Shown here piece by piece: positions 21,982-27,646 of a stretch of DNA of 52,808 nt (within the stretch, counting starts at the first letter, position 1; the number at the start of each line of letters is the position of its first letter). The notes beneath the pieces were generated by a model that worked only from the letters and a program-made list of their open reading frames with translations, ran no database searches and had not been told where the DNA came from. The DNA is taken from the NCBI GenBank assembly GCA_937864815.1, contig CALMJY010000019.1:1-52808 (forward strand), written 5' to 3'. The position numbers and the translations under genes were made by a program. This DNA is from an uncultured Bacteroidota bacterium (GTDB taxonomy: Bacteria; Bacteroidota; Bacteroidia; Bacteroidales; VadinHA17).

Positions 21982-22449
21982 ATGATTGTAAAGGTGGGAT
22001 TGAAGAATTTATATATTGAACCAACTGCCAAAACTCCCCAGATTGATCTCAATTGTGTTAATGGGGAACTTATACTCTCGGGAAGATCCATCCCTGAAAA
22101 TTCAGCAGAACTATACGGCAGTGTACTGAATTGGGTTCATGAGTATATACAGAATCCCAGACAAATTACAAATCTCAGGCTCAATCTCGAATATTTCAAT
22201 ACATCTTCTTCAATCTGGCTTGCCAGGATAGTTAAGACACTCAGTACCATTAAGAACAATGAATATACAGTTATGATTCATCTGTATTTCAATATTGATG
22301 AATATAATAATATGGATTCAGAAGATATCAGAGATGCACTTAGCCCGATTATTGATATTATTGGCTCACCATCAATCAGTATCGGTATCAAAATTTACGG
22401 AACTGATTCTAACGGACAAATATTGAAAGAATCAATGGTACTTATTTGA
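21982..22449 (+). CDS. SiaC-like (DUF1987) regulatory phosphoprotein
   Basis: EPTAKTPQIDLNCVNGELILSGRSIPENSAELYGSVLNWVHEYI resembles the SiaC/DUF1987 family (TP.I......G.L.i.GRSiPEn). Confidence 0.7.
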   Translation: MIVKVGLKNLYIEPTAKTPQIDLNCVNGELILSGRSIPENSAELYGSVLNWVHEYIQNPRQITNLRLNLEYFNTSSSIWLARIVKTLSTIKNNEYTVMIHLYFNIDEYNNMDSEDIRDALSPIIDIIGSPSISIGIKIYGTDSNGQILKESMVLI

Positions 22450-22534: not shown

Positions 22535-24040
22535 ATGAGATCAGTAATATTAATATTGCTACTTATTTTTTCTATCATGGAAACAAATGCACAAAACAAA
22601 CATGTTGACAGAAGGCCCATTGCAGCGGGGAGATTCTATTCTGCCGGAAAGGATGCATTAATGAAAGACATTTCAAAGCTGTTTGAGGAGTGTAAAAAAA
22701 GTGATGAGAAACTTGATGTCAGAGCAATCGTTTCACCACATGCTGGTTATGTTTTTTCTGGCAAAATTGCAGCATCAGCTTTTTCCTCCGTTGACAGAGG
22801 GAAGATAATTAAAAATATATTTATTATAGGATCAAGCCATGTTATGGCATTCGACGGAGCATCAGTATACAATACAGGTGATTACATAACACCTCTTGGC
22901 ACTGCTACTGTTAACATTGAGATAGCTGAAAAGCTGAAAAAAGAAAACAAAGTATTTGATTTTCCAACCACATCTCATATTCAGGAACACAGCATAGAGG
23001 TCCAGATACCATTCATTCAGTATTATTTTACAGGTAATCCTACCATTATACCGGTAATAATCGGTACAACAAATGATAATACCATAAAAAAAATAGCTGA
23101 TGCGTTAAAACCCTGGTTCACAGAAGACAACCTGTTCGTTATAAGCAGTGATTTTTCTCATTACCCTTCCTATAAGGATGCTATAAGTGCTGATAATGCC
23201 ACTGCAACAGGATTGGCTTCAGGAAATACTCAAACATTCCTGAAATCGCTTAGTTACAACTCATCAAAAAATATTGACGGACTGGCTACAAGTATGTGTG
23301 GATGGACCTCAGGACTTACCTTGCTTTATCTCTCGGAATCTGACAATTCACTCAAATACAAATTACTGGATTACTGTAACTCCGGTGATTCAGAATATGG
23401 CGATAAAGACAGGGTAGTCGGCTACTATGCCATTGCACTTTTTGAAAGTGACAATAAAAATAGTAGTAAATTGAAGGATAAGGAAAGTTTTCATATCAGT
23501 GAAACTGAAAAAAACCGGTTGTTTGAAATTGCAAGGACAAGCATAAGCTCACGGTTAAATAATAATAAATACATTGCCCCGGATCCTGATAAAATGCCTG
23601 ATTTGCTGAAAATGAACTACGGAGCCTTCGTTACTATAAAGATAGATGGCATTCTGAGAGGTTGTATCGGTAGATTTATCTCTTCCGATCCGCTTTATGA
23701 GGTGGTAAAAGCTTCCGCTTTGTCTTCTGCATTTGAAGATCCCAGATTTACCCCTTTAACCAGAGAGGAATATGAGAAGATTACAATAGAAATAACAGTT
23801 CTGGGGCCTTTGCAGAAGATATCCACTCCAAATGAAATAGTGCTTGGCAAGCATGGTATTTATATTAAAAAAGATTTCAGGTCGGGTACAATGCTGCCAC
23901 AGGTAGCAATTGAACAGGGATGGAATACCGAACAATTCCTTGGCTATACTTCAAGGGATAAAGCTGGTATCGGATGGGATGGATGGAAAACGGCCGAATT
24001 ATTTGTATATGAGGGCTTTGTTCTTGAAGAAAAAGAATAA
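22535..24040 (+). CDS. AmmeMemoRadiSam system protein B/A fusion (Memo + AMMECR1 domains), predicted secreted
   Basis: Signal peptide MRSVILILLLIFSIMETNAQ; Memo motifs SPHAGYVFSG, GSSHVMAFDGAS, EHSIEVQIPFIQ, SSDFSHYP, CGWTSG; AMMECR1 motif LRGCIG. Confidence 0.9.
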   Translation: MRSVILILLLIFSIMETNAQNKHVDRRPIAAGRFYSAGKDALMKDISKLFEECKKSDEKLDVRAIVSPHAGYVFSGKIAASAFSSVDRGKIIKNIFIIGSSHVMAFDGASVYNTGDYITPLGTATVNIEIAEKLKKENKVFDFPTTSHIQEHSIEVQIPFIQYYFTGNPTIIPVIIGTTNDNTIKKIADALKPWFTEDNLFVISSDFSHYPSYKDAISADNATATGLASGNTQTFLKSLSYNSSKNIDGLATSMCGWTSGLTLLYLSESDNSLKYKLLDYCNSGDSEYGDKDRVVGYYAIALFESDNKNSSKLKDKESFHISETEKNRLFEIARTSISSRLNNNKYIAPDPDKMPDLLKMNYGAFVTIKIDGILRGCIGRFISSDPLYEVVKASALSSAFEDPRFTPLTREEYEKITIEITVLGPLQKISTPNEIVLGKHGIYIKKDFRSGTMLPQVAIEQGWNTEQFLGYTSRDKAGIGWDGWKTAELFVYEGFVLEEKE

Positions 24041-24045
24041 TTATT

Positions 24046-26475
24046 ATGTACCATGTTACCGGAACCGGCATAACATTACTGATATTATACCTGATTAGTT
24101 ATCTTTTTTCACGGTTAGGGTATTTTACAATCTCACAGCATAAAAAATTCTGGAATATTGTACTGGCAACTACGTTCATTGTAACAGCCATTGCCGGGTT
24201 ATTTATGGCATTACAGATTTCCTATAAATGGGACATACCAAATGTAAAAACCATACTCAAGTGGCATGTAGAATTTGGAATCGGAATGGCAGCAACCGGG
24301 ATACTTCATTTTATCTGGCATCTTCCATACTTTGGGAGATTATTTTCGGAAGAAATCAGGAATAATACCGCAATCTCTGAAATTAATGTTCTTAAGGAAG
24401 GAACTTCATGGATTTCAGCTAACCTTTTCATAACCGGATTCGTAAGTTCATCAATACAGCTGCTTCTGATAAGGGAAATGATGAATATTTCAGGCGGATA
24501 TGAGCTTATTTCCGGCATTTTCCTGGGCACATGGCTAATAATGTCAGCTGCTGGTGCATTCTTCGCAGGAAAATCAACATTGCTGGAGGCTGGAAAGATC
24601 AACATGGTTTTTGCACTTAGTCCTCTGGTTTCACTTATACTTATGTTTCTCCTCTCCCGTCTGTTTCTCGAGATTGGAGAAACACCATCAGTTTTCATCA
24701 GTATAATTTATAACATACTGGTTTTGACCCCATTCTGTATATCATCCGGGTTTATTTTTGTAAAGCTTATTTCCATTGCGCAAAGAATCCCAGGGTATAA
24801 TCCGGGTAAATCATTTTCAATTGAAACAGCAGGTGGAATTACAGCCGGAATTCTGATCTCTCTGATGGTTTCAGAAGAACTCGGTACTTATAAGCTAATA
24901 CTTGTAATTATTCTGTTATCGTTTACCTATACTTTGCTAACATTTTATCTCAAACAAAAAGCCCTAAAACTTGTCACTAAAATTATTGTATCAATTGCTG
25001 TAACGGTCATCTTGATGTCTGATCCGGATATTCTGTTTCGTCAGCTTTTATTACATGCTGTCAAAGTTATTGAATCAAGGGATACTCCATACGGTAATAT
25101 AACTACAGGGACTTACAATGGTGAAAAGAGTATTTATTATAACCAGCGACTTCTGAAATATAATGATGACATCGTTGAACGTGAAGAAGACATCCATTAT
25201 GCTATGCTACAGCATAAATCACCTGAAAATGTAGTGGTTATTTCAGGATCACCTGAATCGCATTTACCTGAATTGCTTAAATATCCTGTTAAAAAGATAA
25301 TATATATTGAAAGGGACCCGGTTCTTGCTTCGATGATTTATACTGAAAGATTTAAGGAAAAAGTCATCATCTCAAATTCAGATGCATTTTCATTTATGAG
25401 AAATACTTCAGAAAAGGCAGATGTTATAATTATGCTTGTTCCGCCTCCCTCAACTCTACTACTTAACAGATATTATACCACAGAATTCTTTTCCGAAATC
25501 AAGGAATTTCTGAACACAGGAGGAATTTTTTTATGCTCTCCGGGCACAGCTGAAAACTACTATAACGACGCATCACTTAATCTGAATTCATCAATTTTCA
25601 ACAGCATGAAGGCAGTCTTCAGGAATGTGATTCCGGTTTCCGGTAATAAGTTATATTTTATAGCTTCTGAGGATACTCTTACCACTAATTTCTGTCAACT
25701 TTATACCAGTAGAGGAATAGCAAATCTATATGTCAGTGACGGCTATCTCTCAGATGATCTGATTGAGAAAAAAACAAAAGAAGTCTACAATCTTCTCAAT
25801 CCCTTAACAAGTCAGAATACTTTTAATTTTCCTCTGGCATACAGCTATTTCCAGGCATTTCGAATTAGTCGCAGCAAGAATGAGAAGGCATATGTAATTA
25901 TTTTACTTACTATACTCTTCGCATTACCATTAATATCTTTAAAAAGGAGAAATCTTACAATGTATTTCAGTGCTTCAGCTTTGGCCGGATTTGAAGTTAT
26001 TGCATTGCTTACACTTCAGTTGACAGCTGGCAATATGTACCAGATGACAGGACTTATTATTGCTGGTTTAATGGCAGGAATCGCTATTGGAGCTGGTTTT
26101 AATCTAAGAGTCCTGTCACGGTTTTCTCTGGTTTTAAAAGGGAGTACCCTTATTTCCTTTTATTTTATCACCGGACTTATTTATCAGGAGATAGTTCAAA
26201 TTGAAGGCAGGACAATTGCAATACTCGTTATACTGATTTTATCTTTTCTTCCGGGCTGCATTACCGGCAGTATTTTCAGAGATCTTACCATGAAAAAAAG
26301 TATCAGTAATGATTTACCCGTAATATACGCTGCGGACTTATCAGGATCTGCAATTGGCTTTATAGGAGTCTCGGGATTTCTGATCCCGATATTTGGAATT
26401 ACTGTAACAATTTTTTTTCTGGGAGTATTGGTTTTTACAGGTATCTTGTTTGGAACAATCCTTAACAAGCATTAG
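24046..26475 (+). CDS. multi-TM protein with degenerate spermidine-synthase-like domain (AmmeMemoRadiSam-associated)
   Basis: 809 aa; N-terminal His-containing TM segment, central YGNITTGTYNGEKSIYYNQRL...LNRYYTTEFF aminopropyltransferase-like region, further TM helices. Confidence 0.75.
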   Translation: MYHVTGTGITLLILYLISYLFSRLGYFTISQHKKFWNIVLATTFIVTAIAGLFMALQISYKWDIPNVKTILKWHVEFGIGMAATGILHFIWHLPYFGRLFSEEIRNNTAISEINVLKEGTSWISANLFITGFVSSSIQLLLIREMMNISGGYELISGIFLGTWLIMSAAGAFFAGKSTLLEAGKINMVFALSPLVSLILMFLLSRLFLEIGETPSVFISIIYNILVLTPFCISSGFIFVKLISIAQRIPGYNPGKSFSIETAGGITAGILISLMVSEELGTYKLILVIILLSFTYTLLTFYLKQKALKLVTKIIVSIAVTVILMSDPDILFRQLLLHAVKVIESRDTPYGNITTGTYNGEKSIYYNQRLLKYNDDIVEREEDIHYAMLQHKSPENVVVISGSPESHLPELLKYPVKKIIYIERDPVLASMIYTERFKEKVIISNSDAFSFMRNTSEKADVIIMLVPPPSTLLLNRYYTTEFFSEIKEFLNTGGIFLCSPGTAENYYNDASLNLNSSIFNSMKAVFRNVIPVSGNKLYFIASEDTLTTNFCQLYTSRGIANLYVSDGYLSDDLIEKKTKEVYNLLNPLTSQNTFNFPLAYSYFQAFRISRSKNEKAYVIILLTILFALPLISLKRRNLTMYFSASALAGFEVIALLTLQLTAGNMYQMTGLIIAGLMAGIAIGAGFNLRVLSRFSLVLKGSTLISFYFITGLIYQEIVQIEGRTIAILVILILSFLPGCITGSIFRDLTMKKSISNDLPVIYAADLSGSAIGFIGVSGFLIPIFGITVTIFFLGVLVFTGILFGTILNKH

Positions 26476-26509
26476 TTTTATTGCTTTATAGCAGGAACAA
26501 ATTAATAAA

Positions 26510-27646
26510 ATGCAGGAGTCCGTAAACAGAATAAGCAAACGAGATTTTATCAGAAGATCTCTTGCACTTTCCGCCGGTGTGATATGCTTCCCCTGTGAAA
26601 AAATTATTAATGCTGAATCAACAGATCAGAGCAGCATTTACAAAAGGCTGGCAATGTACCAGGAGGAAACTGCCCGTGGAATTATGTGCAGAGTATGTCC
26701 AAATGAATGTGTATTAAAGGAAGGTGAACTCAGCAAGTGCAATAACAGAAAAGTACATAATTCAAAACTATACACCCTGGCATATGGAAATCCCTGCTCT
26801 GTTAACATTGATCCGGTTGAAAAAAAGCCGCTTTATCACTTTTTTCCAGGATCAAGAGCTTATTCAATAGCCACTGCAGGTTGTAACCTTGTTTGTCTCA
26901 ACTGTCAGAACTGGACTATATCACAGACCAGTCCGGATAAAACAAGGAATTATAATCTTCCTCCCGAAGATGTAGTCTCTGATTGTATAAACAATAACTG
27001 TAAATCAATAGCTTACACGTATTCAGAACCGGTTACCTTTTACGAATATGTATATGAAACGGCCCGTATTGCCAGAAAGTCAGGTGTCAAAAACATAATG
27101 AAATCTAACGGGTACATTAATACTGAACCACTCAGGAATCTCTGTTCTGTAATTGATGCAGCCAATATTGACCTTAAGGCATTCACTGAAAGTACTTACC
27201 TCAAACTCACGGGCGGAAAACTGCAACCTGTACTCGATTCACTTAAAGTTTATCTCGAAATGGGTGTTTGGCTTGAAATTACAAATCTTGTTGTTCCTAC
27301 CTGGAGTGATAATCTTAAAGAAATAAGAGATATGTGCCGTTGGCTTAATAATAATGGGTTCAGCAAAACTCCCCTGCATCTCAGCAGGTTTTATCCTTTA
27401 CACAAACTTGAACAATTACCTCCCACACCTGTTGAAACACTTAATGAAGCTGCAAGGATTGCCAAAGAAGAAGGAATCAGATACGTATATACAGGAAATG
27501 TACCAGGAAATGAATTATCAAATACAATTTGCCCTGAATGCAAAACCATTCTTGTCATCAGAAATGGATTCAGGGTAACATCAAATACGATCAGGGGCGG
27601 AAAGTGCAGTAATTGCTCAAAGCCGGTTGAAGGGATATGGAATTAG
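26510..27646 (+). CDS. AmmeMemoRadiSam system radical SAM enzyme with Tat-like leader
   Basis: N-terminus SKRDFIRRSLALSAGV; radical SAM cluster CNLVCLNC (CX3CX2C); MCRVCPNEC and CPECKTIL..CSNC Cys motifs. Confidence 0.9.
   Translation: MQESVNRISKRDFIRRSLALSAGVICFPCEKIINAESTDQSSIYKRLAMYQEETARGIMCRVCPNECVLKEGELSKCNNRKVHNSKLYTLAYGNPCSVNIDPVEKKPLYHFFPGSRAYSIATAGCNLVCLNCQNWTISQTSPDKTRNYNLPPEDVVSDCINNNCKSIAYTYSEPVTFYEYVYETARIARKSGVKNIMKSNGYINTEPLRNLCSVIDAANIDLKAFTESTYLKLTGGKLQPVLDSLKVYLEMGVWLEITNLVVPTWSDNLKEIRDMCRWLNNNGFSKTPLHLSRFYPLHKLEQLPPTPVETLNEAARIAKEEGIRYVYTGNVPGNELSNTICPECKTILVIRNGFRVTSNTIRGGKCSNCSKPVEGIWN

Follow-up and report, generated by a model that had tools for sequence, protein, structure and literature searches.

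A probably extracytoplasmic AmmeMemoRadiSam system in Bacteroidota with a membrane protein that may handle SAM and electrons

The window, a stretch of 52,808 nucleotides from an uncultured Bacteroidota bacterium, contains three open reading frames on the same strand, separated by intergenic gaps of 5 and 34 bp (Table 1). They encode a Memo-AMMECR1 fusion, a polytopic membrane protein with a spermidine-synthase-like (SpeE-like) domain, and a radical SAM enzyme. A preliminary description had reported three tightly packed, co-oriented genes of these families, and both the coordinates and the families were borne out by profile searches.

Table 1. Features of the operon (positions in the window) and the radical SAM genes of two related loci (positions in loci L083 and L084; L numbers label the loci compared).
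Feature	Position	Strand	Basis or remark
Memo-AMMECR1 fusion (AmmeMemoRadiSam proteins B+A)	22535..24040	+	Family profiles, orthologue alignment
Signal peptide of Memo-AMMECR1	22535..22591	+	Sec type; hydrophobic leader kept in 11 orthologues
Polytopic membrane protein: 3-TM N-terminal domain + 7 TM + SpeE-like domain + 7 TM	24046..26475	+	
N-terminal 3-TM domain of the membrane protein (aa 1-105)	24046..24360	+	Invariant His; weak DUF4405 similarity
SpeE-like domain of the membrane protein (aa 336-545)	25051..25680	+	Predicted periplasmic
Radical SAM enzyme, AmmeMemoRadiSam family (amrS, TIGR04337)	26510..27646	+	Profile match
Tat-type leader of the radical SAM enzyme	26510..26614	+	Conserved motif residues
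Radical SAM protein of L083, canonical Tat leader and CxxCH	8842-10092		Gene order: radical SAM, Memo-AMMECR1, membrane protein
Radical SAM protein of L084, canonical Tat leader and CxxCH	9071-10315		Gene order: radical SAM, Memo-AMMECR1, membrane protein

The genes flanking the operon, named from their sequences, are housekeeping genes (ffh and argS upstream; ligA, dapA and secA downstream), and these surroundings are conserved across eleven related Bacteroidales loci. The preliminary description had proposed checking neighbourhood conservation across Bacteroidota. The trio recurs, and in more distant members of the phylum the Memo, membrane-protein and radical SAM genes adjoin inside unrelated neighbourhoods. 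Because the three genes stay together there, the trio itself is the unit. The neighbourhood comparison of loci found no further operon partner conserved across lineages, and plasmid matches supplied few useful neighbour genes. Directly upstream of the operon, a small protein of 155 aa (21982-22449) is conserved in several related loci.

The Memo-AMMECR1 protein (501 aa) joins a Memo domain (aa 28-299; PF01875, 8e-56) to an AMMECR1 domain (aa 331-494; PF01871, 1.6e-48), with NCBIfam scores above the cut-offs for both TIGR04336 (228 bits, cut-off 26) and TIGR04335 (158 bits, cut-off 99). A genome search identified it as the sole Memo and the sole AMMECR1 found in the genome. It begins with the signal peptide MRSVILILLLIFSIMETNA, followed by Q after the cleavage point; sequence inspection and hydropathy reveal a short basic n-region, a hydrophobic core and an SPase I or II site. 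The Memo ligands H69, H102 and C255 and the AMMECR1 motif LRGCIG (374-379) are conserved across 11 orthologues. Both earlier observations on this protein, a cleavable-type signal peptide and intact Memo and LRGCIG motifs (together with the CX3CX2C cluster of the radical SAM enzyme), were confirmed, the residues being conserved in the 11 orthologues and the leader keeping both its sequence and its length over 10 orthologues, as does that of the radical SAM enzyme. Lipobox-like Memo signals occur in L080-L085 and other relatives, and Memo proteins of the leaderless class carry no signal.

The radical SAM enzyme (378 aa) belongs to AmmeMemoSam_rS TIGR04337 (339 bits, cut-off 220). Besides the CX3CX2C cluster (C125/C129/C132), it has an N-terminal cysteine set (Cys60/63/67/77) and a C-terminal one (Cys341/344/366/369). 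Forty-odd positions, including all three cysteine sets, are common to exported and leaderless enzymes. The AlphaFold model of this protein is poor (pLDDT 55), too weak to build on. The operon resembles the known AmmeMemoRadiSam system (TIGR04335, TIGR04336, TIGR04337; amrB, amrS) in having all three families above cut-off and the same metal and cluster residues. Among characterised radical SAM enzymes, the closest in sequence are the glycyl-radical-enzyme activases PflA and YjjW, which act in the cytosol; the enzyme studied here differs from them in its Tat leader and in the extra cysteine sets at both ends. A second TIGR04337 enzyme is encoded in the same genome (G000:C206:18704-19678; L046/L086). 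It is leaderless and lies close to a contig end, which follows just behind it; a second Memo or AMMECR1 to accompany it was not found in the assembly.

The leader of the radical SAM enzyme reads SKRDFIRRSLALSAGVICFPC...INA, with a putative cleavage site before E. Its length is fixed and K10, R11 and F13 are invariant among 11 sequences, which makes it a KRxF-type leader with Lys-Arg in place of Arg-Arg. Tat leaders with KR have precedent: the pair is natural in TtrB and tolerated in TorA and SufI mutants (PMC1182353). The leaders of relatives are canonical RR ones (SRREFI in L083, SRREFV in L084, SRREFLK in L169, RR in L177), and in L174 and L175 an N-terminal membrane anchor takes the place of the Tat leader. 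An absence of Tat genes had been named beforehand as grounds for abandoning export of the enzyme; the genome search found TatC and three TatA/B-type genes. Judged by sequence, the protein has what is expected of a Tat substrate: an SRRxFLK-type motif in its KR variant, a moderate h-region and Tat genes in the genome. The Tat-like leader of the preliminary description thus gains a conserved Tat anatomy and is refined to a KR form with canonical RR counterparts in relatives. The resemblance to TtrB extends to that protein being an Fe-S protein; it is no radical SAM enzyme, however, and serves in electron transfer as a subunit of a respiratory enzyme.

Another sign of export comes from L083 and L084, where a CxxCH heme-c motif lies between the leader and the enzyme domain of the radical SAM protein. 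Covalent heme c attachment occurs only outside the cytoplasm, so the motif is an independent pointer to export, with the proviso that a lone motif may bind another metal instead. The signals are diverse and point to one location: KR-type Tat leaders, SRREF-type Tat leaders (L083, L084, L169, L177), anchors (L174, L175) and Memo lipoprotein signals. The leaders could in principle be mis-called 5' ends of an ordinary cytosolic AmmeMemoRadiSam system, as most members of the three families are leaderless. This explanation is extremely improbable, since dozens of genomes share the leaders, with both sequence and position conserved.

The distribution of export signals was compared with that of the membrane protein across 92 Bacteroidota loci, comprising the first loci and 40 from the window's order. 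The radical SAM protein carries an export signal in 42/42 loci with the membrane protein nearby, and about 44 of the 50 loci without it have no such signal (6/50 were scored with one), kinship being ignored in these counts. In the first phylum-wide set, the leader was present in 18/18 radical SAM proteins whose locus also holds a membrane-protein gene and in 0/63 of the others. A leader of the same type was found in 2 of 663 other ORFs of the same loci, and both resemble ordinary Tat leaders. The Memo signal peptide and the radical SAM signal were concordant in 53/55 loci, again with relatedness ignored. When the leader label was placed on a tree of 65 radical SAM proteins, about five changes were needed, and well-supported branches require at least three of them. 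The link between leader and membrane protein is thus a repeated one rather than a single inheritance. This strict linkage of the exported proteins to a polytopic protein supports the membrane coupling suggested earlier. The modification role proposed with it would follow from the enzyme families.

Leaderless systems are also present close by. Some loci of the window's order (L178, L190-L194) pair a Memo-AMMECR1 fusion with a radical SAM protein, both leaderless, and lack the membrane protein. Seven sampled genomes have an exported copy as well as a leaderless one. The one true exception to the pattern is L087 (5983-8413), in the same order, where Memo-AMMECR1 bears a signal, the radical SAM enzyme has no leader and the membrane protein is absent. 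The 'leader' scored for L197 is probably spurious, lying ahead of the true start, and L187, scored 'none', appears leader-like by eye. A four-gene version has a second radical SAM gene, without a leader, immediately after the leader-bearing one (L167, 7943-8974; L168, 321-1346). A tandem of three radical SAM genes, mostly Tat-leadered, adjoins one membrane-protein gene in L176 (6952-10775) and in L177 (6653-9480).

These data bear on an alternative in which only Memo-AMMECR1 is exported: the radical SAM enzyme would stay in the cytoplasm, its leader a tether or a vestige, and the two halves would share a target molecule, which would pass through the membrane via the polytopic protein. SAM and the reductant are cytosolic, most of the window's clade has the KR form of the leader, L087 shows exactly this arrangement, and L167/L168 place a leaderless enzyme right behind a leader-bearing one. 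Against this, the full Tat anatomy is conserved, relatives have canonical RR, L083/L084 carry CxxCH, the anchors of L174/L175 would also place the enzyme outside, and the leader tracks the membrane protein in every locus that has it. We regard the alternative as unlikely.

The membrane protein (809 aa) has 14 helices flanking the SpeE domain, seven on each side. The match of this domain to spermidine synthases is clear in fold, both by Pfam (PF01564, 1.9e-12) and by PDB matches, and the AlphaFold model of the protein is of moderate quality (pLDDT 69.5). The Pfam match and the helix bundles agree with the earlier view of the middle protein as polytopic with a spermidine-synthase-like domain. 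Among the 14-TM relatives, most inside loops average 2-3.6 K/R against 0.1-1.9 outside, and the SpeE domain is therefore predicted, from both flanks, to be periplasmic. The positive-inside rule also predicts an outside catalytic domain for the canonical membrane-bound spermidine synthases of Bacteroidota (L057-L078). Because these enzymes have cytosolic substrates, the rule may mislead for the SpeE domain. With this prediction, the Tat genes and the co-varying export signals, the earlier proposal that all three products are envelope-localised is partly supported.

The residues of the SpeE-like domain depart from those of a spermidine synthase. The dcSAM-binding Asp of GGGDG is lost in 43/43 membrane proteins and the first (catalytic) Asp of DxPDP in 41/43; the protein in the window has LVPPP at the latter position. 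In 22 canonical controls the catalytic Asp is kept by all, and the Asp of GGGDG is kept except in two with GGGEG. E422 and D446 occupy the positions that contact ribose and adenine in spermidine synthases; neither varies within the window's group, and the adenosyl-contact positions are mostly kept more widely. This pattern is as expected of a binder of adenosyl compounds that does not carry out aminopropyl transfer, and the computation supports reading the domain as a putative defunct aminopropyltransferase. In L172 (7864-9990), the membrane-protein gene is split into two ORFs, possibly by a frameshift or an assembly error.

The matches to spermidine synthases in Pfam and the PDB would allow the middle gene to be an ordinary membrane-bound polyamine aminopropyltransferase that lies in the operon by chance. 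The loss of both aspartates, including a catalytic Asp that the canonical controls keep, and the persistence of the gene beside Memo and radical SAM genes in unrelated neighbourhoods make this very improbable. The protein shares with membrane-bound spermidine synthases and fused MFS-SpeE proteins (PRK03612-type, PF01564) a SpeE fold after membrane helices; it differs in that the SpeE domain is followed by a further helix bundle, in lacking the dcSAM and catalytic Asp, and in its AmmeMemoRadiSam linkage. As judged from its fold and residues, it is of spermidine-synthase descent yet falls outside the catalytic definition of that family, which is given by the GGGDG Asp and the DxTDP/DxPDP Asp.

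The N-terminal 3-TM domain was gained in the window's lineage, and roughly half of the relatives lack it. H74, H88 and H92 are invariant in 22/22 sequences and H32 is present in 21/22. A single helix carries both H74 and H88, with the 14-residue spacing that is typical of diheme b cytochromes. The H-x3-G-x9-H pattern in one helix of DUF4405 (PF14358), a putative b-type cytochrome-like family, aligns with H74/G78/H88, and an hhalign comparison set H74/H88 on the DUF4405 histidines (p = 4e-4; control segments, p about 0.05 or more). The domain differs from DUF4405 in its two extra conserved histidines (H32, H92) and in its Pfam score, which is below the cut-off in every member (16.3 bits against 26.7). 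A heme-b role is for that reason a lead rather than a finding, and the domain is best described as containing a possible heme-b site. A search for homologues elsewhere in Bacteroidota returned only noise outside the known set. This histidine domain, the lost aminopropyltransferase residues and the leaderless relatives go beyond the preliminary description.

The invariant histidines and the heme-c motif of two relatives suggest redox wiring, and there is no obvious SAM source outside. Both observations would suit an exported radical SAM protein that had become an Fe-S electron carrier or metal protein and lost its radical chemistry. This reading is quite improbable, since the core positions conserved in leaderless enzymes, among them the cluster cysteines and conserved positions further downstream, are all kept in 17 exported ones.

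The trio, its export signals, their tight co-variation and the intact enzyme residues are all supported by computation. Because the soluble parts carry export signals and are paired with a dedicated membrane protein, the radical chemistry of AmmeMemoRadiSam is probably carried out beyond the cytoplasm in many Bacteroidota. By family the operon is an AmmeMemoRadiSam member; by its predicted anatomy, with export signals and a constant MFS-like/SpeE-like membrane neighbour that contrast with the mostly leaderless known systems, it is a compartment-switched variant. An extracytoplasmic system whose membrane protein may handle both SAM and electrons is thus the likely reading. We infer that the enzyme uses SAM for radical chemistry and that its target belongs to the envelope; the membrane protein would deal with SAM or SAM-derived products and, in the window's lineage, would also relay electrons.

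In such a scheme, the radical SAM enzyme would fold round its clusters in the cytoplasm and then be exported by Tat, and Memo-AMMECR1 would be exported by Sec to the periplasm, or held at the membrane as a lipoprotein in relatives. Both would work beside the dedicated MFS-like membrane protein, its SpeE-like domain facing the periplasm. SAM could be handled by this domain, mounted on the MFS-like core, with its adenosyl contacts kept and aminopropyl transfer lost; electrons may arrive through the invariant-histidine TM domain or, in the two relatives, the heme-c motif on the enzyme itself. The full mechanism, in which a true radical SAM enzyme turns over outside the cytoplasm and draws SAM and electrons via a membrane protein built from an MFS-like core, a SpeE-derived domain that binds adenosyl compounds and a heme domain of b type, is put forward tentatively. 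Radical SAM enzymes are not known to work outside the cytosol, as they require SAM and a strong reductant. No extracytoplasmic source of SAM or of a low-potential reductant is known, which counts against the extracytoplasmic reading, as do the KR motif of the window's lineage and the exception L087.

The literature searched, whose coverage leaves out most subscription journals, yielded no account of a radical SAM enzyme that is exported or periplasmic. A comparative study of Memo domains by Burroughs et al. 2019 (J Biol Chem) reportedly put forward modification of nucleotide bases and of isoprenoids; of the two, isoprenoids would be the better match for an envelope location. If the extracytoplasmic reading is true, SAM would be available and a low-potential electron route would exist in the periplasm. 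The exported version would narrow the possible Memo/AMMECR1 substrates to the envelope, and its membrane-protein partner may reveal how SAM and electrons are supplied. The system may also offer a handle on the shared function of Memo and AMMECR1, whose human homologues are linked to disease.
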